Source: Fundidesulfovibrio terrae
GTDB lineage: Bacteria > Desulfobacterota > Desulfovibrionia > Desulfovibrionales > Desulfovibrionaceae
DNA: 64,000 nucleotides
Direction of reading: 5' to 3'
Assembly (NCBI RefSeq): GCF_022808915.1
Contig: NZ_JAKZFS010000001.1
Location: 124,001 to 188,000, forward strand
Positions 10,931 to 28,425 of this stretch are shown in pieces (within the stretch, counting starts at the first letter, position 1; each line of letters opens with the position of its first letter). The position numbers and the translations under genes are program-made. Under the pieces are notes generated by a model. It was not told where the DNA came from. It was given only the letters and a program-made list of their open reading frames with translations, and made no database searches.

Positions 10931-12046
10931 TCAGCGCGAAAGCAGGTCCCGCGCCTCGTCGTCGGTGAGCGGGCGGCCCAGCCGTTCGGACTTGGCCCGC
11001 ACCTTCCGTGTGATCCCCTCCAGGTCGCGCCCGGCCGGGTCCATCCCGAACTCGGCCATCTTGGCGGCCACGGCCGCCCGGCCGCTCTTCTTGCCCAGGG
11101 CCACCAGGCGGGAAAGCCCGAGCTTCGCCGGATCGTAGGGTTCGAACAGGGACGGATCGCGCGTGAGCCCGTGCACGTGCAACCCCGTCTCGCAGGAGAA
11201 CTGGGCCGAGCCCGCCACGGGCTTGCGCGGCGGTATCTCGATCTTGGCCGCATCGGCCACGGTGCGGCACAGCCCGGGAAGCACCTCCACCCTGTAGGGA
11301 AGTCCCAACCGGAAATGCAGGTAGGCCGTAAGTTCTTCCAGGGCGGCCAGCCCTGCCCGCTCTCCCAGGCCCAGCACCGAGGCGTCGGCGTATTCGGCTC
11401 CGGCCATGAGCCCTGCCAGGGCGTTGGCCGTGCCCAGGCCGAAATCGTTGTGGCAGTGCACGCCAACGGCAACGCCGGGTACGGCGGCCTTGAGCCGCCC
11501 GACCACCTCGGCCACCTCCAGCGGATGCCACAGCCCCACCGTGTCCGACAGGCGCACCCGCGAGGCCCCGGCGTCGCGCCCGGCCAGCGCCGCCCGGACC
11601 AGGAACTCCGGATCGGCCCGGGAGGCGTCCTCCAGGCCCAGGGACACCCGGGCCTGGCCTGAGGCGCAGGCCAGCGCCACGTGGCGCGCCAGGTGCGCAA
11701 GCAGCGCGTCCGGGGAGAGCCCCAGGCGTTTTTCCATGTGCGCGGCGGACACGGGCAGCCCCAGGTGCAGCCAGTCGGTGTTCAGGGCGGCCCCGGCCAG
11801 GATGGTGTCCTCGCGGCAGGCGGCCCACACCGACAGCTCGGGCCTCACGCCGTGGCCGCGCCCGCCCAGGCCGCGCGCTAGCTCCACCAGCCCGGCCACC
11901 GAGGCGTCGCGCCCGGCGATGCCCAGCTCCACCTCGTCGACGCCGAGCGCCGCCAGCCGGGTCAGGATGTTCGCCTTGGCGTCCGGCGTCAGGTATACCC
12001 CGAAGCACTGCTCGCCTTCGCGCAGGGTGGAGTCGATGATCTTCAC
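10931..12046 (-). CDS. nifV: Homocitrate synthase (NifV type)
   Basis: A 371-residue member of the HMGL/DRE-TIM alpha-isopropylmalate/homocitrate synthase family. It makes homocitrate, the organic ligand of FeMo-cofactor, from acetyl-CoA and 2-oxoglutarate. Seen: IIDSTLREGEQ near the N terminus, VSLGLEDASRADPEF, VRLSDTVG, and VGVHCHNDFGLGTANALAG with the metal-binding HxH, then GLGERAGLAALEE. The length fits NifV, with no leuA regulatory domain. Start is GTG 12046, which overlaps the stop of the upstream c-di-GMP gene as GTGA, implying translational coupling. NifV rather than citramalate synthase is supported by the nearby nif operons. Confidence 0.85.
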   Translation of the reverse strand: MKIIDSTLREGEQCFGVYLTPDAKANILTRLAALGVDEVELGIAGRDASVAGLVELARGLGGRGHGVRPELSVWAACREDTILAGAALNTDWLHLGLPVSAAHMEKRLGLSPDALLAHLARHVALACASGQARVSLGLEDASRADPEFLVRAALAGRDAGASRVRLSDTVGLWHPLEVAEVVGRLKAAVPGVAVGVHCHNDFGLGTANALAGLMAGAEYADASVLGLGERAGLAALEELTAYLHFRLGLPYRVEVLPGLCRTVADAAKIEIPPRKPVAGSAQFSCETGLHVHGLTRDPSLFEPYDPAKLGLSRLVALGKKSGRAAVAAKMAEFGMDPAGRDLEGITRKVRAKSERLGRPLTDDEARDLLSR

Positions 12047-13776
12047 GCGGCGTCTCCATGGGGGAGGAGCACGTCCCCCCGGGACAGCAGGGCCGCGAAT
12101 TCGCGCGGCGGCAGGGGTTTGGCGTAGAGGTAGCCCTGGAAGCCGTCGCAGCAGGAGAGCGAGCGCAAAAACTCCAGCTGGGCCATGGTCTCCACGCCCT
12201 CGGCCACCACGGCCAGCCCCAGGTTGGCCGCGATGGACACCACCGAGGTGACGATGGCCGCGTCGTCCTTGTCCTGGGGCAGTCCGTCCACGAAGGATTT
12301 GTCGATCTTGAGCGTGGAGATGGGCAGCTGCTTCAAGTAGGTCAGGGAGGAATACCCGGTGCCGAAGTCGTCCAGGGCCACGGTGATCCCGGCGGCGGCC
12401 AGGCTGGAGAGGGTCTTGCGGGCCTCGGCGAAGCCCTTGAGGAACACGGTCTCGGTGACTTCCACCTCCAGCCTCGAGGCGGGCAGGCCGGTGCGCTCGA
12501 GCACCGCCAGCACCTTGGCGGCCAGCCCGGGCTGCTCGATCTGGCGCGGCGAGAGGTTCACCGCCACCTTCAGGTCGCCCAGGCCCTCGTCGAGCCAGAG
12601 CTTGGTCTGGCGGCAAGCCTCCTCCAGGATCCAGTCGCCCAGGGCCAGGATGAGCCCGGTCTCCTCGGCCAGGGGGATGAACTCTCCCGGCGATACGGGG
12701 ACGCCCCCGGCAGGAATCCAGCGCACCAGAGCCTCCATGCCCCGCACCGTGCCCGTGAGCACGTCCACGCGGGGCTGGTAGTAGAGCACGAACTCCTCGC
12801 GGGCCAGGGCCTTGCGCAGGTCGTTCTCCAGCTTCAACCCCTTGAGCACCCGGTTCCCCAGGTCCTCGGTGAAGAAATTGAAGTTGTTTCGCCCGGCCTC
12901 CTTGGCGCGGTACATGGCCATCTCGGCGTTGCGCACGAGCTGGGCCGGGTCCGTGCCGTCCGAGGGGGATATGGTCACGCCGATGCTGGCGGTGACGTGC
13001 AGTTCCTCGCCCAGGGTCTCCACGGGGTCGGCCAGGCAGGTGAGGATGCGTCCGGCCACGTGGGCCGCGTCCTCGGGGTCGCGCAGCTCGGTGAGCAGCA
13101 TGTAGAAGTCGTCGCCGCCGAAGCGCGAGAGGGTGTCGGCCTGGCGCAAGAGCTTCGAGAGCCGGTAGCCCACCTCGGTGAGGATGATGTCGCCTGTCGC
13201 GTGGCCCAGGCTGTCGTTGATGGTCTTGAAGCGGTCCAGGTCCAGGCAGATGACGCCCACGGGGTTGCCGCCCAGCTGGGACTTGCGCAGGGCCATGCCC
13301 AGGCGGTCGTGGAAGAGGTGGCGGTTGGGCAGCCCGGTGAGGGGGTCGTGGTAGGCCTCGTGGAGCAGGACTTCCTTGTGGCTCTTCTGGTCGGTGATGT
13401 CGGTGAAGACCCCTACGTAGCCCGCCAGCCTTCCCGAGGCGTCCCGGATGGCCCGGATGGAGAGCCGTTCTGGGTAGGCCTCGCCGGATTTGCGGCGGTT
13501 CCAGATTTCGCCCTCCCAGACGCCTTCCTCGATGAGACGGGACCACAGCGCCTCGTAGAAGGCCGCGTCGTGGTGGTCGGACTTGAGCATGCGGGGGTTC
13601 TGCCCGTGCGCTTCGTCAGCGTCGTATCCGGTGATGTCGGTAAAGGCGTCGTTGACCCAGAGGATGCTTCCGTCGGGGGCGGTGACGATCATGCCTTCGC
13701 CGCTGGCCCGCACGAGCGCTTCGAGCAGACGCGCGGGATCACCGGGAGGGAGTGGGAACGGGGGAGGAGGGTTCAT
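12043..13776 (-). CDS. PAS-GGDEF-EAL cyclic-di-GMP signalling protein
   Basis: A 577-residue cytoplasmic protein with three domains: PAS (about 18-132, IVTAPDGSILWVNDAFTDITGYDADEA), GGDEF (about 140-300, active-site motif GGDDF preceded by SRF) and EAL (about 315-560, MEALVRW, then VAVNLSPRQ, DDFGTGYSSLTYL and AEGVET). Both catalytic motifs look intact, so it could make and degrade c-di-GMP. No membrane segment; the PAS domain may sense redox state or a ligand. Its TGA overlaps the GTG start of nifV. Confidence 0.92.
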   Translation of the reverse strand: MNPPPPFPLPPGDPARLLEALVRASGEGMIVTAPDGSILWVNDAFTDITGYDADEAHGQNPRMLKSDHHDAAFYEALWSRLIEEGVWEGEIWNRRKSGEAYPERLSIRAIRDASGRLAGYVGVFTDITDQKSHKEVLLHEAYHDPLTGLPNRHLFHDRLGMALRKSQLGGNPVGVICLDLDRFKTINDSLGHATGDIILTEVGYRLSKLLRQADTLSRFGGDDFYMLLTELRDPEDAAHVAGRILTCLADPVETLGEELHVTASIGVTISPSDGTDPAQLVRNAEMAMYRAKEAGRNNFNFFTEDLGNRVLKGLKLENDLRKALAREEFVLYYQPRVDVLTGTVRGMEALVRWIPAGGVPVSPGEFIPLAEETGLILALGDWILEEACRQTKLWLDEGLGDLKVAVNLSPRQIEQPGLAAKVLAVLERTGLPASRLEVEVTETVFLKGFAEARKTLSSLAAAGITVALDDFGTGYSSLTYLKQLPISTLKIDKSFVDGLPQDKDDAAIVTSVVSIAANLGLAVVAEGVETMAQLEFLRSLSCCDGFQGYLYAKPLPPREFAALLSRGDVLLPHGDAA

Positions 13777-20796: not shown

Positions 20797-20817
20797 CAGT
20801 TGCAGGAAGGTGATGTC

Positions 20818-21351
20818 ATGGACAACATGCGGCGCATACAAAGGATGAGCAGGCTCCTCGGGAGGGTTTCGACCGTCCTGTTCTGGGCCACGCCGTTCGC
20901 CTGCGCCCTGTTTTGGGCGTACTTCAACGGCTTTCCGGACATCATGAAGTCGAGATTCCTGGTCCCGGGTAGACTGGACCTGCTGGCCATGAACCGCGCG
21001 CTGTGCTTCGTGGCCAACATGCTCCCGGCGGTCGTGGCCATGTACGGCTTCAGGACCATCCGTGAACTGTTCGGATTGTACGCGGCCGGCGAGATTTTTT
21101 CCCGCCGGAACGTGTCCTGCTACCGGGCGCTCGGCAAGGCCCTCCTCTACTGGGCCGGGGCGGCGTTTTTGAACACGCCCCTTCTGTCCCTGGCGATGTC
21201 GGCGGGCATGCCCGCCGGGCAAAGGCACATCACGGTCAGCCTCGGTTCTGACGAACTGGCCGCCCTGTTCGCGGGCGCGGCCGCGCTGGTGATCTCCTGG
21301 GTCATGGACGAGGGCCGCCATATCGAAGAAGAACAGGCTTTGACCATTTAG
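20818..21351 (+). CDS. DUF2975-family membrane protein
   Basis: A 177-residue protein with four hydrophobic helices (about 13-33, 60-80, 105-130 and 145-165), typical of DUF2975. The stretch FRTIRELFGLYAAGEIFSRRNV matches the family's conserved cytoplasmic loop. ATG 20818 follows AGGAAGGTG. The adjacent small Cro/CI-type regulator at 21360 is the usual genomic partner of DUF2975. Function of the family is unknown. Confidence 0.8.
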   Translation: MDNMRRIQRMSRLLGRVSTVLFWATPFACALFWAYFNGFPDIMKSRFLVPGRLDLLAMNRALCFVANMLPAVVAMYGFRTIRELFGLYAAGEIFSRRNVSCYRALGKALLYWAGAAFLNTPLLSLAMSAGMPAGQRHITVSLGSDELAALFAGAAALVISWVMDEGRHIEEEQALTI

Positions 21352-21359
21352 GCGGCGCA

Positions 21360-21590
21360 GTGGCGATACTGGTGAACCTGGACGTCATGCTGGCCAAGAG
21401 GAAGGTGTCCTCCAAGGCCCTGGCGGAAGCGGTGGGCATAACCGCCCAGAACTTGTCCATTCTCAAGACGGGCAAGGCCAAGGCCATCAGGTTCTCCACC
21501 CTTGAGGCCGTCTGCCGTTTCCTGGACTGCCAGCCCGGGGATATCCTGGAATTCAAGCCGGACGGAGATTCACCCGGCGGCGGGGACTGA
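21360..21590 (+). CDS. YozG-type XRE/HTH_26 transcriptional regulator
   Basis: A 76-residue single helix-turn-helix protein (LDVMLAKRKVSSKALAEAVGITAQNLSILKTGKAKAIRFSTLEAVCRFLDCQPGDILEF), the Cro/CI type paired with DUF2975 proteins. GTG start at 21360, 8 bp after the DUF2975 stop. Probably regulates its own two-gene unit. Confidence 0.85.
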   Translation: MAILVNLDVMLAKRKVSSKALAEAVGITAQNLSILKTGKAKAIRFSTLEAVCRFLDCQPGDILEFKPDGDSPGGGD

Positions 21591-21826: not shown

Positions 21827-22433
21827 TCATCCGGCCTTCTCGAGCTTTCCCAGCAGATGGTCCCGCAGGCGGAGCGCGCCCTGGCGCTCCAGCAGGTCGA
21901 AGACCGCCAGGTGCTGCCAGTAGGCCTCGCGCGGGATGCCCCGGCTGGCGCACAGGCGGGCGCGCAGCTTCTCCCAGTAGGTGCGCAGGAGCATCTGTCC
22001 GTAGGCCCCGACCAGGCAGCCGGGCATGATGGTGAACAAGCCCGTGGCCGGGTCGCCCAGGGCGTCGTAGGCGGGCCAGCCGGGGCTGGCGCAGGCACTC
22101 GAGGGCCGTGCCGCGGTGGTCGTCCGGCACGATGCGCGGGTCCACTCCGCGCGAGGACAGGTACAGGCCCACAATGGGCGGCTTCCTGGGCGACGCCCGA
22201 AGCGACGCCGGGGCGCAACGGCTGAGCGTGTCGCGGAATATCTGGTAGTAGCGGTTCACCGTGTTGCGGTTCACGTCCATGGCCTTGGCCGCGAGGCTGG
22301 CCGAGTCGCCGGCGGCGAAGCGCCCGGCCAGTTCGCGCAGGCGCTCTTCATCCAGTTTGGCGTACGCGGCGTAGCGGTTCTTTCTCTTGAGGCCCTGGGA
22401 TTGGCAGGTTGGGGAGGATATCATGCGCGTCAC
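21827..22433 (-). pseudogene. Frameshifted gene with an IS1595-like N-terminal HTH
   Basis: The minus frame from ATG 22433 encodes a helix-turn-helix region (YAKLDEERLRELAGRFAAGDSASLAAKAMDVNRNTVNRYYQIFRDT) like the N terminus of IS1595-family transposases, then PPIVGLYLSSRGVDPRIVPDDHRGTALECLRQP. Near plus position 22079 the sensible reading moves one base, within a run of four C, into GWPAYDALGDPATGLFTIMPGCLVGAYG...LLGKLEKAG, ending at 21827. With one C removed, a 201-residue protein results. The C-terminal part is not the IS1595 catalytic domain and is not recognised. Real decay and assembly error cannot be told apart here. Confidence 0.6.
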
Positions 22434-22617
22434 CTTTTGCGATTTTGAGACTCATTATCAATAAGGTTTGAGACGGTAAACCCATTCCTCTTTCCCCGCC
22501 ACTTGATGAGAAGATTCGGTTGATCCGACCCCGCTCGGACCGGCCGCCCGGCTGGACGGAGCGGGCCGCGCGCGTTATGCGTAAGGTGCACGCAGAAACC
22601 GCCAGGAGCCCCAGCCC

Positions 22618-23358
22618 ATGGACCATCCCCTCCCGCTTTTCGACAAGGAACAGCAGGTCGTCGAATCGGCCAGGCAGGCTCTTGCGGCTGCCCCGCAGGC
22701 CCTGGCCGAGCCCTTCGGCGAGCTCCTGCGGGAGTATGAGTCCCTCATGGAGCGCTCGCGCCGGGTGGCCGAGATGGCCCTCTCGGTGCAGATGGACCTG
22801 GACGCGGCCCTGGCGCAGGTGTCCCAGCTCTCCCAGGTGGACGGGCTCACCGGGGCCCTGAACAGCCGCTCCTTCGAGCTGCTTCTCTCGCGCGACTGGG
22901 CCCAGGCCCAGCGGGAGGGCACGGCGCTGTCGCTCGTCATGGTCAACGTGGACAATTTCCGGGCCTACAACGACATCTACGGGTCGCTCAAAGGCGACGA
23001 TTGCCTGAAGGCCGTCACCCAAGTCCTTCTGCGCTGCCTCTACCGCGAGGTGGACGTGGTGGCCCGCCTGGAGGGCGACACCTTCGCGGCCCTCCTTCCC
23101 GGCACCGACGCCAAGGGCGCTCTGGTGGTGGCGGAGCGCATCGCCTCGGAGACCGCCGCGCTGGAGATCCCCCATCTGGAATCTCCGCACGGGGGCGTGG
23201 TCACGGTGAGCGTGGGGCTGGCCGCGGTGACGCCCACCCGGGCCGAGGCCCCCATGGTGCTGGTGCGCCGGGCCCAGGCGGCCCTGGGCCTCGCCAAGGA
23301 TTCGGGACGCAACGCCGTTTTCCTGGACTCCGGCGATCAGTATTCCGAAGCCGGGTAG
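22618..23358 (+). CDS. Degenerate GGDEF-domain protein
   Basis: A 246-residue protein: a helical N-terminal region (1-70) then a GGDEF domain (about 75-240; DGLTGALNSRSFELLL, LVMVNVDNFRAYNDIYGSLKGDDCLKAVTQVL). The active-site loop is EGDTF instead of GG(D/E)EF, so diguanylate cyclase activity is unlikely. The inhibitory-site RxxD is kept as REVD at the correct five-residue distance, so it may bind c-di-GMP as a receptor. ATG 22618 follows AGGAG. It is monocistronic, lying between the accessory block and the nif small ORFs. Confidence 0.8.
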   Translation: MDHPLPLFDKEQQVVESARQALAAAPQALAEPFGELLREYESLMERSRRVAEMALSVQMDLDAALAQVSQLSQVDGLTGALNSRSFELLLSRDWAQAQREGTALSLVMVNVDNFRAYNDIYGSLKGDDCLKAVTQVLLRCLYREVDVVARLEGDTFAALLPGTDAKGALVVAERIASETAALEIPHLESPHGGVVTVSVGLAAVTPTRAEAPMVLVRRAQAALGLAKDSGRNAVFLDSGDQYSEAG

Positions 23359-23745
23359 GGCTTCGGACCGGCCGCTCCGGTGCGGCCGCCCGGCTGACCG
23401 CAACGCACCGCGCTGTCCGGTGCTGGGTGCCCGCGTGCCGGGACGCTCCCGCAGCTCATGATGCCGCTGCGTTCCCAGGCGCGGAGAAGGCGGCTCAGTT
23501 CCCGCTTTTCCGGGCAAGTGCGGGATTGCGTTCCTGCGGATTTACAACCCCGTGTATGGTGATAATGAAAATCGAAATCGCTGCGGGGCGGGCTGGCCGC
23601 CCTCCAGCGTAACCTATCCTGTCGCGCAGGCATCATCACTTTGTCACATGATGCGAGTAGCAGTGTGTTGCCCGGGAGCGGGGGGCAGGGGTGTCCCGCG
23701 ATACCCCCGGACGCGAACCGTACGATCAACGCCGGAGATTCGTAT
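23359..23745. other. Intergenic region before the first nif small ORF
   Basis: Contains a short CGGCCGC/GCGGCCG hairpin after the GGDEF gene (23369-23388) and an inverted repeat GCATCAT / ATGATGC with an 11-base spacer (23630-23654), about 90 bp upstream of the small ORF, a possible operator. No sigma54 site was found here and no other gene is evident. Confidence 0.45.
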
Positions 23746-23847
23746 ATGAATATGACCGAACGCTTTCAGATGCTGTTTGCCCTGGCCGTGAGCCTGATGA
23801 TTCAGGGCGGGCTGTACGTCTACTGCCTGGAAAGCCTCGCCAGCTGA
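23746..23847 (+). CDS. Tiny single-helix membrane protein, nif-associated (33 aa)
   Basis: ATG 23746 with GGAG 8 bases upstream opens a 33-residue ORF ending TGA 23847. Residues about 9-28 form one hydrophobic helix. It shares 12 identities over 27 aligned residues with the 36-residue ORF at 24189, including V-S-L-x-I-Q-x-G-(L/F)-Y-x-x-C-L-x-x-L, so the two are paralogues. A strong terminator follows at 23878, so it is a separate transcript from nifENB. Family not recognised. Paralogy in such short ORFs is good evidence that both are translated. Confidence 0.7.
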   Translation: MNMTERFQMLFALAVSLMIQGGLYVYCLESLAS

Positions 23848-23877
23848 TAACCGGGAACGCCCCGGTCTCCTCCTCGA

Positions 23878-23921
23878 GCATGGCCCGCCACCGTACAGGA
23901 CGGTGGCGGGCCATGCGCTTT
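23878..23921 (+). terminator. Strong terminator after the first small ORF
   Basis: A 17-bp perfect stem (GCATGGCCCGCCACCGT and complement) with a 5-base loop, followed by GCTTTT. It separates the first small ORF from the nifENB transcription unit. Confidence 0.9.
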
Positions 23922-23981
23922 TCATCCCTCTTGGCTTTGCGCCTCCCTGGCCGATCGACATCCCTCCATGGCGTTGTTCTT

Positions 23982-23999
23982 ACAATTTTGTGCAATTGT
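23982..23999. promoter_or_regulatory. Inverted repeat upstream of the nifENB promoter
   Basis: Perfect arms ACAATT / AATTGT with a 6-base spacer, about 80 bp upstream of the -24 box, flanked by CTTACAA and, further on, TTTTTGTA as in the nifH upstream region. A second stem CGTGGC/GCCACG lies at 24016-24032. Candidate enhancer or operator. Confidence 0.45.
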
Positions 24000-24076
24000 G
24001 TGCGTTTTTGTATCCCGTGGCCGTCAGCCACGCTTGGCCAAAGAATATTATATAGCAATATCAAATAGATAGTTCG

Positions 24077-24091
24077 TGGCACGGGACTTGA
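24077..24091 (+). promoter_or_regulatory. Sigma54 (-24/-12) promoter of small ORF 2-nifENB
   Basis: TGGCACG, four bases, TTGA: exact -24 half and correct spacing; the -12 is TTGAT rather than TTGCW. The same motif type drives nifH. Leader to the small ORF at 24189 is about 85 bases. Confidence 0.8.
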
Positions 24092-24188
24092 TAAACACCG
24101 CTCGTGGACGCGCTGCCGAAGCGGTTCCACGGCGGCCCGAAGAGAGACGGTTTCACTCCGGAAACAACCCAAGCGATCGGAGGCGGTC

Positions 24189-24299
24189 ATGACGGCTTCA
24201 ACCCTGCGCGGGAACCTGGAAATGATCACAACCCTCACCGTCAGCCTCGCCATCCAGGCCGGATTCTACGCCGCCTGCCTGACGAACCTGGTCCGCTAA
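24189..24299 (+). CDS. Tiny single-helix membrane protein, nif-associated (36 aa)
   Basis: ATG 24189 with GGAGG 5 bases upstream opens a 36-residue ORF ending TAA 24299, 22 bp before the nifE start. Residues about 11-31 are hydrophobic (MITTLTVSLAIQAGFYAACL). It is a paralogue of the 33-residue ORF at 23746, with conserved Ser, Gln, Gly, Tyr and Cys. Position as first gene under the sigma54 promoter implies nitrogen-fixation-dependent expression. No known nif protein of this type is recognised. Confidence 0.75.
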   Translation: MTASTLRGNLEMITTLTVSLAIQAGFYAACLTNLVR

Positions 24300-24321
24300 C
24301 CATAAGCGAGAGGCTTACCCC

Positions 24322-25719
24322 GTGTCCGACATCATCTTCGAGGAACGCAAGGACCAGATCCACGTCAAGGGTGAGGGTCCGTTCAAGCTGGCCTGCAACC
24401 GCGATTCCCTGGCGGGGGCGGTCAGCCAGCGGGCCTGCGTGTTCTGCGGCTCGCGGGTGGTGCTCTATCCCATCGCGGACGCCCTGCACCTGGTGCACGG
24501 CCCCATCGGCTGCGCGGCCTACACCTGGGACATCCGGGGCGCGCTGTCCTCCGGCCCCGAGCTGCACCGCCTGTCCTTCTCCACGGACCTGCAGGAGACG
24601 GACGTGATCTTCGGGGGGGAGAAGAAGCTCTACGCGGCGCTCACCGAACTCATCGACCGCCACCAGCCCAAGGCGGCTTTCGTCTACTCCACCTGCATCG
24701 TGGGCATCATCGGCGACGACCTCGCCGCCGTGTGCAAGAAGGTCTCGGCCGAAAAGGGCATCCCGGTTATCCCGGTGCAGTCGGAAGGGTTCAAGGGCAA
24801 CAAGCGCGAGGGCTACCTGGCCGCCTGCAAGGCCATGTTCACCCTCATGGGTACGGGCGATACGTCGGACATCTCACCGATATCGCTCAATATCCTGGGC
24901 GACTTCAACCTGGCGGGCGAGATCTGGATCATCCGCGAATATTTCGAGCGCATGGGCATCCAGGTGGTGGCCAACATCACCGGCGACGGCCGCGTGGGCG
25001 ACATCGCCCGCGCCCACGGCGCGGCGCTCAACGTGGTGCAGTGCTCCGGCTCCACCATGGACCTGGCCAAGATGATGAAGGACGCCTACGGCACCCCGGT
25101 GGTCAAGGTGTCCTACTTCGGCATCGAGGACATGGCCGAGGCCCTGTACGCCGTGGCCCGCTTCTTCAAGGACAAGGACCCGGACATGCTCGCCCGCACC
25201 CAGGCCCTGGTGAAGGAGGAGCTGGCCGTGCTCTACCCGAAGCTCTCCCAGTTCCGCAAAGACCTGGAGGGCAAGAAGGCCGCCATCTACGTGGGCGGCG
25301 CCTTTAAGGCCTTCTCGCTGATTAAAGCATTTCGCCACCTGGGCATGTCCGTGGCCATCGCGGGCTCCCAGACCGGCACCCCCGAGGACTACGAGGAACT
25401 GGCCTCCATCTGCGACCCCGGCACCATCATCATCGACGACGCCAACCCCCTGGAGCTCTCCCACTACCTCAAGGAAAAGGACGTGGACATCTTCGTGGGC
25501 GGCGTCAAGGAGCGCCCCATCGCCTTCAAGCTGGGCGTGGGATTCTGCGACCACAACCACGAGCGCAAGGAAGCCCTGGAAGGGTTCGTGGGCATGTACA
25601 ACTTCGCCCTGGAGGTGCACCGCACGGTCATGAGCCCGGTGTGGCGCTTCGTGCCCCGCCGGGCGGGCAAGGCCTTGGCCGAAAGCCTGGACGATCTGCC
25701 CAAGGAGTGCGCGTTATGA
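24322..25719 (+). CDS. nifE: FeMo-cofactor scaffold protein NifE
   Basis: A 465-residue NifE, the NifD-like half of the NifEN scaffold on which the NifB-cofactor matures into FeMo-co. Conserved cysteines occur at C39 (QRACVFCGSRVV), C64 (GPIGCAAYTWDIRG) and in STCIVGIIGDD; IRGALSSGPELHRLSFSTDLQETDVIFGGEKKL is typical of NifE. It starts with GTG 24322 after a GAGAGG site and overlaps nifN by ATGA. Confidence 0.97.
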   Translation: MSDIIFEERKDQIHVKGEGPFKLACNRDSLAGAVSQRACVFCGSRVVLYPIADALHLVHGPIGCAAYTWDIRGALSSGPELHRLSFSTDLQETDVIFGGEKKLYAALTELIDRHQPKAAFVYSTCIVGIIGDDLAAVCKKVSAEKGIPVIPVQSEGFKGNKREGYLAACKAMFTLMGTGDTSDISPISLNILGDFNLAGEIWIIREYFERMGIQVVANITGDGRVGDIARAHGAALNVVQCSGSTMDLAKMMKDAYGTPVVKVSYFGIEDMAEALYAVARFFKDKDPDMLARTQALVKEELAVLYPKLSQFRKDLEGKKAAIYVGGAFKAFSLIKAFRHLGMSVAIAGSQTGTPEDYEELASICDPGTIIIDDANPLELSHYLKEKDVDIFVGGVKERPIAFKLGVGFCDHNHERKEALEGFVGMYNFALEVHRTVMSPVWRFVPRRAGKALAESLDDLPKECAL

Positions 25720-27143
25720 GTTCCCAGAGCGACATCGCCGATGCGACCGCGGTTCTGGACGCCGAGGCCGGGCCATTGAAGCCCAAGCCCGAGCCCTTCG
25801 TCTCCACCACCAACGCCTGCAAGCTCTGCAAGCCCCTGGGCGCCACACTGGTGTTCAAGGGCATCGAGGGCGGCGTGCCCTACCTGCACGGCTCCCAGGG
25901 CTGCGCCACCTACATGCGCCGCTACATCATCAGCCACTTCCGCGAGCCCATGGACATCGCCTCCAGCTCGCTTGGCGAGAAGCAGGCCATCTACGGCGGC
26001 GGCCCCAACCTGAAGAAGGGTCTGCTCACCGTCATGGACAAGTACGGCGCGGGCATGATCGGCGTGGCCACCACCTGCCTCACCGAGACCATCGGCGACG
26101 ACGTGCCCGGGATACTCATGGAGTTTCGGCGCGAATTCGCCGACCTGGGCGTGGCCCCGGTGGTGAACGTCTCCACCCCCAGCTATTCCGGCACCCACAT
26201 GGAGGGCTTCACCGCCGCCGTGCGCGCCGTGGCCGACCAGCTGGCCACGGCCGACGCCAAGACCGCCGCCGTGAACTGCTTTCCCGGATTCGTCTCCTGC
26301 GAGGACATACGGCACCTGAAGGACGTGTTCGCCTCTTTCGGGCTCACGGCCACCATCCTGCCGGACTACTCCGAGACCCTGGACGGTCCCGCCGTGGAGG
26401 ACTACGAGAAAATCCCCTCGGGCGGCACGCCGGTCAAGGCCATCAAGGCCATGGGAGCAGCACCGGCCACGTTCGAGTTCGGGCGCACCCTCTCCGAGCC
26501 CGGCGAGGCGGCCACGGCCGGAGGCCTTCTGGCCTCGCGTTTCGGCGTGCCCCTCAAGCGCCTGGGCCTGCCCATCGGGCTGCGCGAGACCGACGCCTTC
26601 TTCAAGTCCCTGGAGTCCGTCTCCTGCAAGCCCACCCCGCGCCGCAGGGCGCTTGAGCGCGGCCGCCTGCTGGACGCCTTCGTGGACGGGCACAAGTACG
26701 TGTCCCAGAAGCGCTGCGTCATCTACGGCGAGGAGGACCTGATCGTGGGCCTGACCAGCTTCATGGCCGAGATCGGGGTGATCCCGGTGCTGGTGGCCGG
26801 GGGCGGGCGGTCCGGCAGGCTCGAGAAGGCCGTGCGCGCCGCCTGCGAAGGGCTCGTCCCCGAGATGCCCGAGGTGGCCGAGGGCGTGGATTTCTACGAC
26901 ATAGCCGACCGTGCCCGGGAGCTCGCCCCGGATTTCTTCCTGGGCCACTCCAAGGGCTACCGCCTGGCCCGGGAGATGAACGTTCCCCTGGTGCGGGTGG
27001 GCTTCCCCATCCACGACCGCTTCGGCGGGCAGCGCCTGCGCCACCTCTGCTACCAGGGAGCCCAGGAGCTCCTGGACCGGGTGGTCAACGCCATGATCGA
27101 AACGAAACAGACCGGCTCCGACATCGGATACGGGTACATTTAA
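25716..27143 (+). CDS. nifN: FeMo-cofactor scaffold protein NifN
   Basis: A 475-residue NifN, the NifK-like half of NifEN. TTNACKLCKPLGATLVFKGIEGGVPYLHGSQGCATYMRRY and TTCLTETIGDD are diagnostic; the region LGLPIGLRETDAFFKSL lies near 300. ATG 25716 overlaps the nifE stop and has AAGGAG upstream, so the scaffold halves are probably coupled. About 20 N-terminal residues are variable. nifB follows after 10 bp. Confidence 0.97.
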   Translation: MSSQSDIADATAVLDAEAGPLKPKPEPFVSTTNACKLCKPLGATLVFKGIEGGVPYLHGSQGCATYMRRYIISHFREPMDIASSSLGEKQAIYGGGPNLKKGLLTVMDKYGAGMIGVATTCLTETIGDDVPGILMEFRREFADLGVAPVVNVSTPSYSGTHMEGFTAAVRAVADQLATADAKTAAVNCFPGFVSCEDIRHLKDVFASFGLTATILPDYSETLDGPAVEDYEKIPSGGTPVKAIKAMGAAPATFEFGRTLSEPGEAATAGGLLASRFGVPLKRLGLPIGLRETDAFFKSLESVSCKPTPRRRALERGRLLDAFVDGHKYVSQKRCVIYGEEDLIVGLTSFMAEIGVIPVLVAGGGRSGRLEKAVRAACEGLVPEMPEVAEGVDFYDIADRARELAPDFFLGHSKGYRLAREMNVPLVRVGFPIHDRFGGQRLRHLCYQGAQELLDRVVNAMIETKQTGSDIGYGYI

Positions 27144-27153
27144 GGAGTCCCCC

Positions 27154-28425
27154 ATGGCCATGGATCTCTCCAAGCACCCCTGTTTCAATAAGGACGCCAA
27201 GGGCTCCTGCGCCCGCATCCACCTGCCGGTCGCGCCCAAGTGCAACATCCAGTGCAACTACTGCAACAGGAAGTACGACTGCGTGAACGAGTCGCGCCCG
27301 GGCGTCACAAGCTCGGTGCTCACGCCTCCCCAGGCCATCGCCTACATGGAAGAGGTGCTGAAGGCCGAGCCGCGCATCACCGTGGTGGGCATCGCCGGCC
27401 CCGGCGACCCCATGGCCAACGCCAAGGAGACGCTCGAAACCATGCGGCGCATCAAGGCCAAGTGGCCGGACATGATCCTGTGCCTGTCCTCCAACGGCCT
27501 GGAGCTGCCGGAGCACGTTGACGAGCTGGCGGAGATCGGTGTCTCCCACGTCACGGTGACGGTCAACGCGGTGGACCCCGAGATCGCAGCCAAGGTCTAC
27601 TCCTGGGCCCGGGTGGGCAAGGTGCTCTACCGGGGAGCGGACGCGGCCCGCATCCTGCTGGAAAAGCAGGAGGAGTCCATCCGGCGCCTGAAGGAAAAGG
27701 ACATCATCGTCAAGGTGAACACCATCATCATGCCGGGCGTGAACGACCACCACATCGAGGACATCGCCAAAAAGATGAAGTCCATGGGCGTGAACCTGCT
27801 CAACTGCATGGCGCTCATCCCCAACAAGGACACCAAGTTCGAGCTGGTCCCCGAGCCCAGCAAGGCCGACGTGGAGGCCATCAGGGCCATGGCCGAGACC
27901 TATCTTCCCCAGATGCGCCACTGCCAGCGCTGCCGCGCCGACGCCGTGGGGCTTCTGGAAAAGGACTGCTCGCGCGACTTCTCCGGGCTCATGCAGGCCT
28001 GCTCCGCCATGGTCCCGGCCATGGACGAGTCGCGCAAGTACGTGGCCGTGGCCACCATGGAGGGGATGCTGGTCAACATGCACCTGGGCGAGGCCGCCAG
28101 CTTCCAGATATGGGGAGAGGACGGCAACGGCGGCTACAAGATGGTCGAGGACCGCCCGGCCCCGCCCACCGGCGGCGGCCCCAAGCGCTGGTACACCCTG
28201 GCCAAGGCCCTCTCCGACTGCCGGGCCGTGCTGGTCTCGGGCGTTGGCGACACGCCCCAGGCCATCCTGGAGGAGGAGGGCGTCACCGTGGCGGCCATGT
28301 CCGGGTTCATCACCCAGGGGTTGGACGCGGTGTTCAAGTCGGGCGATCTCGGCAAGCTGCGGGCCAAGGGCGGCGGCGGGTGCAAGATGGGCGGCTGCTC
28401 CGGCGGCTCGGGCGAGGGCTGCTGA
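27154..28425 (+). CDS. nifB: Nitrogenase cofactor biosynthesis protein NifB with fused NifX-like domain
   Basis: A 423-residue radical SAM protein that makes NifB-co, the 8Fe-9S-C core of FeMo-co. The radical SAM cluster is C30xxxC34xxC37 (KCNIQCNYCNRKYDC). The catalytic domain spans about 20-290; residues about 300-405 form a NifX/NafY-like cofactor-binding domain (VAVATMEGMLVNMHLGEA...FQIWGEDGNGGYKMVEDR). The tail is Gly/Cys-rich (KGGGGCKMGGCSGGSGEGC). Last gene of nifENB, closed by a terminator. Confidence 0.98.
   Translation: MAMDLSKHPCFNKDAKGSCARIHLPVAPKCNIQCNYCNRKYDCVNESRPGVTSSVLTPPQAIAYMEEVLKAEPRITVVGIAGPGDPMANAKETLETMRRIKAKWPDMILCLSSNGLELPEHVDELAEIGVSHVTVTVNAVDPEIAAKVYSWARVGKVLYRGADAARILLEKQEESIRRLKEKDIIVKVNTIIMPGVNDHHIEDIAKKMKSMGVNLLNCMALIPNKDTKFELVPEPSKADVEAIRAMAETYLPQMRHCQRCRADAVGLLEKDCSRDFSGLMQACSAMVPAMDESRKYVAVATMEGMLVNMHLGEAASFQIWGEDGNGGYKMVEDRPAPPTGGGPKRWYTLAKALSDCRAVLVSGVGDTPQAILEEEGVTVAAMSGFITQGLDAVFKSGDLGKLRAKGGGGCKMGGCSGGSGEGC

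Follow-up and report, generated by a model that had tools for sequence, protein, structure and literature searches.

What are two tiny hydrophobic proteins doing at the promoter of the nifENB genes of Fundidesulfovibrio terrae? Two short open reading frames, here called ORF-A and ORF-B, are located between the gene of a GGDEF-domain protein and nifE in the stretch of 64,000 nucleotides that we analyzed (the window; position 1 is its first letter). A first-pass annotation, made from the letters of the window, had described them as a family of duplicated membrane peptides that may tether or regulate cofactor assembly, iron-sulfur supply, or electron input.

23746 to 23847, + strand: ORF-A, a predicted membrane protein of 33 amino acids with a single helix
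24189 to 24299, + strand: ORF-B, a 36-amino-acid paralogue of ORF-A and the first gene before nifE

Both ORFs, of 33 and 36 codons, were found at these coordinates, each with a purine-rich ribosome site, as described in the annotation. The 12 residues reported to be shared (M, L, V-S-L, I-Q, G, Y, C-L, and L) are shared; however, the ungapped core counts 25 residues and not the 27 given as aligned. The paralogy is above chance in both profile searches and shuffling. A profile made from the six ORF-A sequences alone recovered all five ORF-B sequences from 3231 open frames, with E-values between 9.5e-10 and 5.6e-7; the next best match had an E-value of 0.53. None of 20,000 shuffled ORF-B sequences equaled the score of even one of the five real ones. 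When the whole genome of the organism was searched with ORF-B (limit E 10), the matches were ORF-B itself and ORF-A (E = 0.036), and no others. ORF-A and ORF-B are real, paralogous, and conserved genes.

The genus was sampled with seven Fundidesulfovibrio genomes, six of which contain nifE. ORF-A is present in all six and ORF-B in five, and each of the six keeps the gene order GGDEF, ORF-A, (ORF-B), nifENB. The genome that lacks ORF-B (G094) retains the sigma54 element, nifE, and nifENB, and no second copy of the family was found anywhere in it; ORF-B is therefore not essential for nif. The seventh genome (G118, 66% complete), which has no nifE, contains neither ORF.

A profile of all 11 proteins, searched against 348 genomes of the order, found 11 copies in six genomes (E ≤ 8.2e-14). 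The next match had an E-value of 0.012, and further matches ranged from 0.023 to 1; among the matches listed, 127 of the 348 genomes had one at E ≤ 1. In a sample of 395 genomes of the phylum, the profile returned at E ≤ 0.01 only the two copies from the window and two weak matches. These two and the order-wide match at 0.012, in genomes G118, G655, and G463, were judged to be chance: one is an antisense frame overlying a different ORF, one is part of a long transporter-like frame, and one is an interrupted frame. Among the 119 genomes of the family, nifE is present in 67, and convincing copies of ORF-A or ORF-B are found only in the six from Fundidesulfovibrio; ORF-B-like matches in other genera are weak (E 0.22-0.97, in seven genomes). 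The motif that the annotation had proposed to look for near nif genes was not seen upstream of nifE in 24 loci of other genera, which we scanned for short hydrophobic ORFs that have a stretch resembling a ribosome site, and the order-wide search gave no convincing score outside the genus. A contig scan with the ORF-A alignment yielded five pattern matches, one of them a relative, in a contig of Fundidesulfovibrio agrisoli. A plasmid collection searched with one ORF-A relative as query gave no match, and none of 32 pattern matches in viral contigs was a relative. Within the genomes sampled, 348 of the order and 395 of the phylum, the family appears to be that of a single genus.

Searches of protein libraries gave nothing significant. 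With all 11 members as queries, the best E-values were 0.083 in Pfam and 0.21 in PHROGs; the two proteins from the window had no significant match in NCBIfam, and the best match among PDB sequences had an E-value of 0.068. The curated nif families contained no match to either ORF, and a wide co-occurrence of the ORFs with nif was not seen. No published description of the family was found among the open-licence papers listed in literature searches.

Codon-level comparisons, which the annotation had suggested as a check, indicate purifying selection on ORF-A and weak constraint on ORF-B. For ORF-A, the summed pN/pS is 0.50, and 14 of the 15 pairs, which are non-independent, have a shuffle p ≤ 0.0035. 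For ORF-B, the summed pN/pS is 0.69; p is ≤ 0.0055 in four of ten pairs, 0.052 in one, and above 0.06 in five, and pN/pS reaches 0.97 and 1.21 in two pairs.

All 11 members are ORFs of 31-41 residues with the core L..SL.IQ...Y..CL..L. Nine residues are invariant in the 11 proteins (ORF-A numbering): L13, S16, L17, I19, Q20, Y24, C27, L28, and L31. On a helical wheel, reckoned by hand, I19 lies apart from the other eight. Conservation within the core (columns 17-40, picked by us) shows a periodicity of about 94-98 degrees per residue, with a best angle of 96 degrees for both paralogues together. At 100 degrees, p is 0.00125 for both together, 0.0008 for ORF-B alone, and a marginal 0.088 for ORF-A alone. 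Periodic conservation implies that one face of the helix is kept while the other drifts, and supports a one-sided placement of the conserved polar and aromatic residues, of which the annotation had noted Ser, Gln, Tyr, and Cys inside the helix. Structure prediction gives a single helix (residues 3-32, pLDDT 92) and no other domain. For a membrane helix, the hydropathy is between acceptable and borderline: the 17-residue maxima range from 1.4 to 2.0 among the copies measured, and the usual threshold is about 1.6. The helices may insert into the membrane. One-sided conservation is the pattern that would be expected of a helix docking on a protein partner, and the common set of retained residues in ORF-A and ORF-B suggests that they have the same partner. 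Profile searches, paralogy, selection on ORF-A, helix periodicity, and predicted structure together support the claim that these tiny proteins form a real family.

The first-pass annotation had overlooked Fur-like boxes, the conserved GGDEF neighbor, and the fact that one species lacks ORF-B. The genes and elements upstream of the nif transcript are as follows.

21836 to 22424, - strand: divergent gene of a helix-turn-helix (HTH) or transposase-like protein, at the same place in all six nifE-bearing genomes
22440 to 22460, no strand assigned: Fur-like double box (2 mismatches to the consensus), flanked by the divergent gene and the GGDEF gene
22618 to 23358, + strand: GGDEF-domain protein upstream of ORF-A, degenerate signature RLEGDTF, in all six nifE-bearing genomes
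23560 to 23580, + strand: Fur-like double box upstream of ORF-A, two 15-mers shifted by 6, the first 15-mer with 3 mismatches
23878 to 23916, + strand: intrinsic terminator-like hairpin after ORF-A, a 17-bp stem and a T-rich tail

The hairpin agrees with the earlier description of ORF-A as a terminated single gene, which holds as a prediction. A strong hairpin is located 24-36 nt 3' of the ORF-A stop in all six genomes; its T-run is clear in four and poor in G075 and G106. Within 22400-24400, it is the only terminator-like site on the + strand, and none was found between ORF-B and nifE. A strict sigma70 scan of the same interval found no promoter-like site on either strand, the scan being weak in GC-rich DNA.

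Overlapping Fur-like boxes with the 6-base shift precede ORF-A in four of the six genomes. They score 21-24 of 28, and 0-3 of 1000 Markov simulations reach these scores. Genomes G009 and G050 have no double box at ORF-A (best scores 14 and 15), and their box is located only before the GGDEF gene. The box between the GGDEF gene and the divergent HTH gene scores at least 20 in five of the six genomes and 19 in G075. In the 64-kb window the best 15-mer score is at 22446, inside the box at 22440-22460, and in 162 kb (the window plus the stretches of five relatives) every double box scoring at least 20 precedes either ORF-A or the GGDEF gene. The whole genome of the organism contains 201 single boxes with up to 3 mismatches, versus 51 for a reversed control; with its 3 mismatches, the box of ORF-A in this genome proves nothing by itself. 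A similar box is located upstream of feoB in six of the seven Fundidesulfovibrio genomes; in G075, no box of at least 12 of 14 was found there (best score 10). Genes of the Fur family and feoB are both present in all seven. The training set of the weight matrix consisted of 11 sites in six genomes, none of them from G075; these sites were picked by the Fur consensus, so the matrix is not independent of it. The consensus used is close to one in print, in the available part of a 2004 study (PMC545781). That part reports the double Fur box with a 6-base shift as a feature of Desulfovibrio and lists gdp, a GGDEF gene, among the predicted Fur targets (PMC545781). The layout of the ORF-A box agrees with the double box and 6 bp shift given there (PMC545781). 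ORF-A may be under Fur control.

The GGDEF signature is degenerate in all six genomes, R[LM]EG[DN]TF, and the protein is probably not an active diguanylate cyclase. A domain search found no membrane or partner domain in it. Among the 119 genomes of the family, its clear orthologues (64-72% identity, E ≤ 1e-88) were seen only in Fundidesulfovibrio. Near-whole-length matches of 40-41% identity occur in two other genera (G022 and G027), and these two genomes have no ORF-B-like match at E ≤ 1 among the matches listed. The Fur-like boxes at GGDEF genes score 15-20 in 24 loci of other genera (three reach 20; the open frame runs off the locus in 4 of the 24, and three loci are incomplete) versus 19-22 in the six orthologues; the other genera thus offer no clear boxed case. 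The divergent HTH gene is split here into two frames, with residues 1-117 encoded at 22074-22424 and residues 118-206 at 21836-22102. Copies in the genus have 48-55% identity to the one in G075, and full-length relatives among the 119 family genomes are found only in Fundidesulfovibrio. The Pfam matches of the protein are weak and cover the HTH part only, so the gene may be a domesticated transposase, IS1595-like, that became a regulator.

Between the nifHDK part and the GGDEF gene lies a gene of a DUF2975 protein (20800-21590, + strand), adjoining a gene of a Cro/C1-type HTH protein. The DUF2975 gene is also present in G106. It was not found in the stretches from the four remaining relatives, and the one from G075 stops short of nifHDK. 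Elsewhere in the window, 10931-12180 on the - strand, inside a long open frame, has the look of a homocitrate synthase (nifV-like) gene in its translation.

The elements and genes on the nifE side of the hairpin are the following.

23979 to 24011, + strand: upstream element CTTACAA...GCGTTTTTGT, its GCGTTTTTGT part exact in five of the six genomes and not in G075
24077 to 24092, + strand: sigma54 -24/-12 promoter element TGGCACGGGACTTGAT, at the same place in all six genomes
24322 to 25719, + strand: nifE (TIGR01283, 614 bits, cut-off 505)
25641 to 27143, + strand: nifN-like gene, nitrogenase component 1 type (NifN model 286 bits, under the curated cut-off of 326.8); its true start is probably further downstream than the ORF start at 25641
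27154 to 28425, + strand: nifB (TIGR01290, 402 bits, cut-off 343.65)

The distance from the sigma54 element to ORF-B is 63-112 nt in the five genomes that have ORF-B; in G094, the element lies 91 nt before nifE. All six share TGGCACG as the -24 part. The -12 part reads TTGGA in G106 and TTGAT in the other five, and departs from the Desulfovibrio consensus tTGCt given in the available part of a published study (PMC4641369). Where present, ORF-B sits between this element and nifE, 22-26 nt upstream of the latter. The motif and the layout bear out the reading of ORF-B as the first gene behind a sigma54 element, on a predicted transcript with nifE, and sigma54 control of ORF-B is predicted accordingly from the DNA. 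A second nifE-like gene, scoring 549 bits and thus over the NifE cut-off, was seen in G106 (contig C28, 425148-426485).

The hairpin between ORF-A and nifE, together with the Fur-like boxes at ORF-A and the GGDEF gene, makes ORF-A look like an iron-regulated gene and not like a nif component. On sequence features, ORF-A resembles a gene of the iron regulon, and ORF-B resembles its nif-controlled copy.

We propose, tentatively and with somewhat less than even confidence, that ORF-A and ORF-B dock on one inner-membrane partner that serves iron supply, in iron starvation and in nitrogenase cofactor assembly. The two would be variants of a single membrane docking peptide, each under its own switch, and the single helix of each would show the same face (L..SL.IQ...Y..CL..L) to the partner. 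Iron starvation, sensed by Fur, would turn on ORF-A; ORF-B would come on once the nif regulator activates the sigma54 promoter from which nifENB is transcribed. Given these two switches, the partner is most likely something needed in both states, such as iron acquisition or delivery for the Fe-rich nitrogenase cofactor. Of the roles offered by the first-pass annotation, iron-sulfur supply comes nearest to what the motifs suggest. The most economical candidate for the partner would be FeoB, which the peptide would stabilize or activate; we still think this identification unlikely. Small membrane subunits stabilize or activate other transporters. To our knowledge, FeoB is nearly universal; this weakens it as the partner of a family seen in one genus, and a helper limited to the genus would be a late addition. 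That the partner is shared, which protein it is, and whether the effect is positive or negative are inferences, as are Fur and sigma54 control and insertion into the membrane.

The same motifs and the same helix face would also fit peptides that spare iron by inhibiting an iron-rich membrane complex (a respiratory Fe-S or haem enzyme) or marking it for proteolysis, and would thereby free iron or electrons, with ORF-A acting in iron starvation and ORF-B in nitrogen fixation. The predicted Fur regulon of Desulfovibrio, in the available part of its description, includes an iron-repressed flavodoxin that may replace ferredoxins (PMC545781), which is in keeping with such sparing. However, the peptides are not known to have a target or a degradation signal, nothing separates iron sparing from the activation of uptake, and we regard sparing as unlikely. 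A role in signaling, in which ORF-A would be the anchor or sensor of the degenerate GGDEF protein (and of the divergent HTH protein) and ORF-B would tap the same pathway for nif, seems to us a rather poor prospect. GGDEF gene, HTH gene, and ORF-A adjoin in all six nifE-bearing genomes; clear orthologues of the GGDEF protein and full-length relatives of the HTH protein were seen only in the genus, among the 119 genomes of the family; GGDEF gene and ORF-A have a Fur-like box in common; and the degenerate signature suggests a non-catalytic role. On the other hand, ORF-A with its own box in four of six genomes and its own hairpin in six of six is not simply a gene of a GGDEF operon, the GGDEF protein shows no membrane or partner domain, and the 40-41% matches in G022 and G027 come with no ORF-B-like match (E ≤ 1, among the matches listed).

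The annotation's own view, a dedicated nif accessory that serves as membrane tether for cofactor assembly or as electron input, fits the place of ORF-B behind the sigma54 element, 22-26 nt upstream of nifE. It does not fit ORF-A, set off from nif by its hairpin and in four of six genomes preceded by its own Fur-like box, nor the retention of nifENB without ORF-B in G094, nor the lack of the motif or of any such ORF before nifE in the 24 loci from other genera; we consider it improbable. ORF-B could instead be a leader ORF whose translation is coupled to that of nifE and whose protein product does not matter; its position directly before nifE and the weak selection on it would agree with this. 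In contrast, ORF-A has the same protein core although what comes after it is a hairpin rather than a gene, and conservation in ORF-B tracks the helix period (p 0.0008), which makes this explanation very improbable. A role as nifE leader peptide was discounted for ORF-A by the hairpin, and for both ORFs by the shared protein core. Least probable of all, to the point of being hardly credible, are hydrophobic peptides of the type I toxin kind: their size, single helix, duplication, and short hairpin-ended unit are matched here, but the invariant S, Q, Y, and C, the nif and iron promoter motifs, and the lack of a promoter-like site on either strand in the strict scan (weak in GC-rich DNA) all speak against them.

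Small single-helix regulators are already known; what appears to be new is the family of ORF-A and ORF-B, along with the way its two paralogues seem to be divided, one under iron control and the other under nitrogen-fixation control. KdpF, CydX, AcrZ, and MgtS are single-transmembrane regulatory proteins of about 30-50 residues that dock on a larger membrane protein. ORF-A and ORF-B resemble them in size, in having one helix, and in the docking proposed here; unlike them, they are paralogues that appear to be divided between an iron and a nitrogen-fixation switch, and they have no significant library match. The proposed link to iron uptake recalls a membrane protein encoded in a feo operon and tied to iron uptake in a diazotroph. 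In contrast to that protein, ORF-A and ORF-B are not located at feo, have one invariant Cys, and match no family. The available part of a study of Methanosarcina mazei describes sP36, a small protein of 61 residues that regulates nitrogen metabolism at the membrane; it is cytoplasmic in nitrogen limitation and moves to the membrane (AmtB1, GlnK1) on ammonium upshift (PMC10714827). Unlike sP36 as described there, ORF-A and ORF-B look like permanent membrane helices, by prediction. Like gdp of Desulfovibrio, the GGDEF-domain gene of this locus has a double Fur-like box (PMC545781); the available part of the source mentions no tiny ORF beside gdp.

A single membrane target under two paralogous micro-proteins would make these interchangeable adaptors for the Fur and the sigma54/nif regulons, an idea that we hold to be possible but doubtful. 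If true, the pair would be a direct wire through which a diazotroph increases the iron supply of the nifENB pathway before iron runs short, a connection absent from the literature searched. For the model diazotroph Azotobacter vinelandii, the available part of a 2023 review states that it is unknown how iron uptake rises during nitrogen fixation and whether it is coupled to nif (PMC10669500). Two peptides, one with iron-regulon motifs and the other on the predicted nif transcript, would provide a small, genetically testable candidate for such a coupling in another diazotroph, and with them an unnamed, apparently one-genus protein family joins an otherwise well-described gene cluster.
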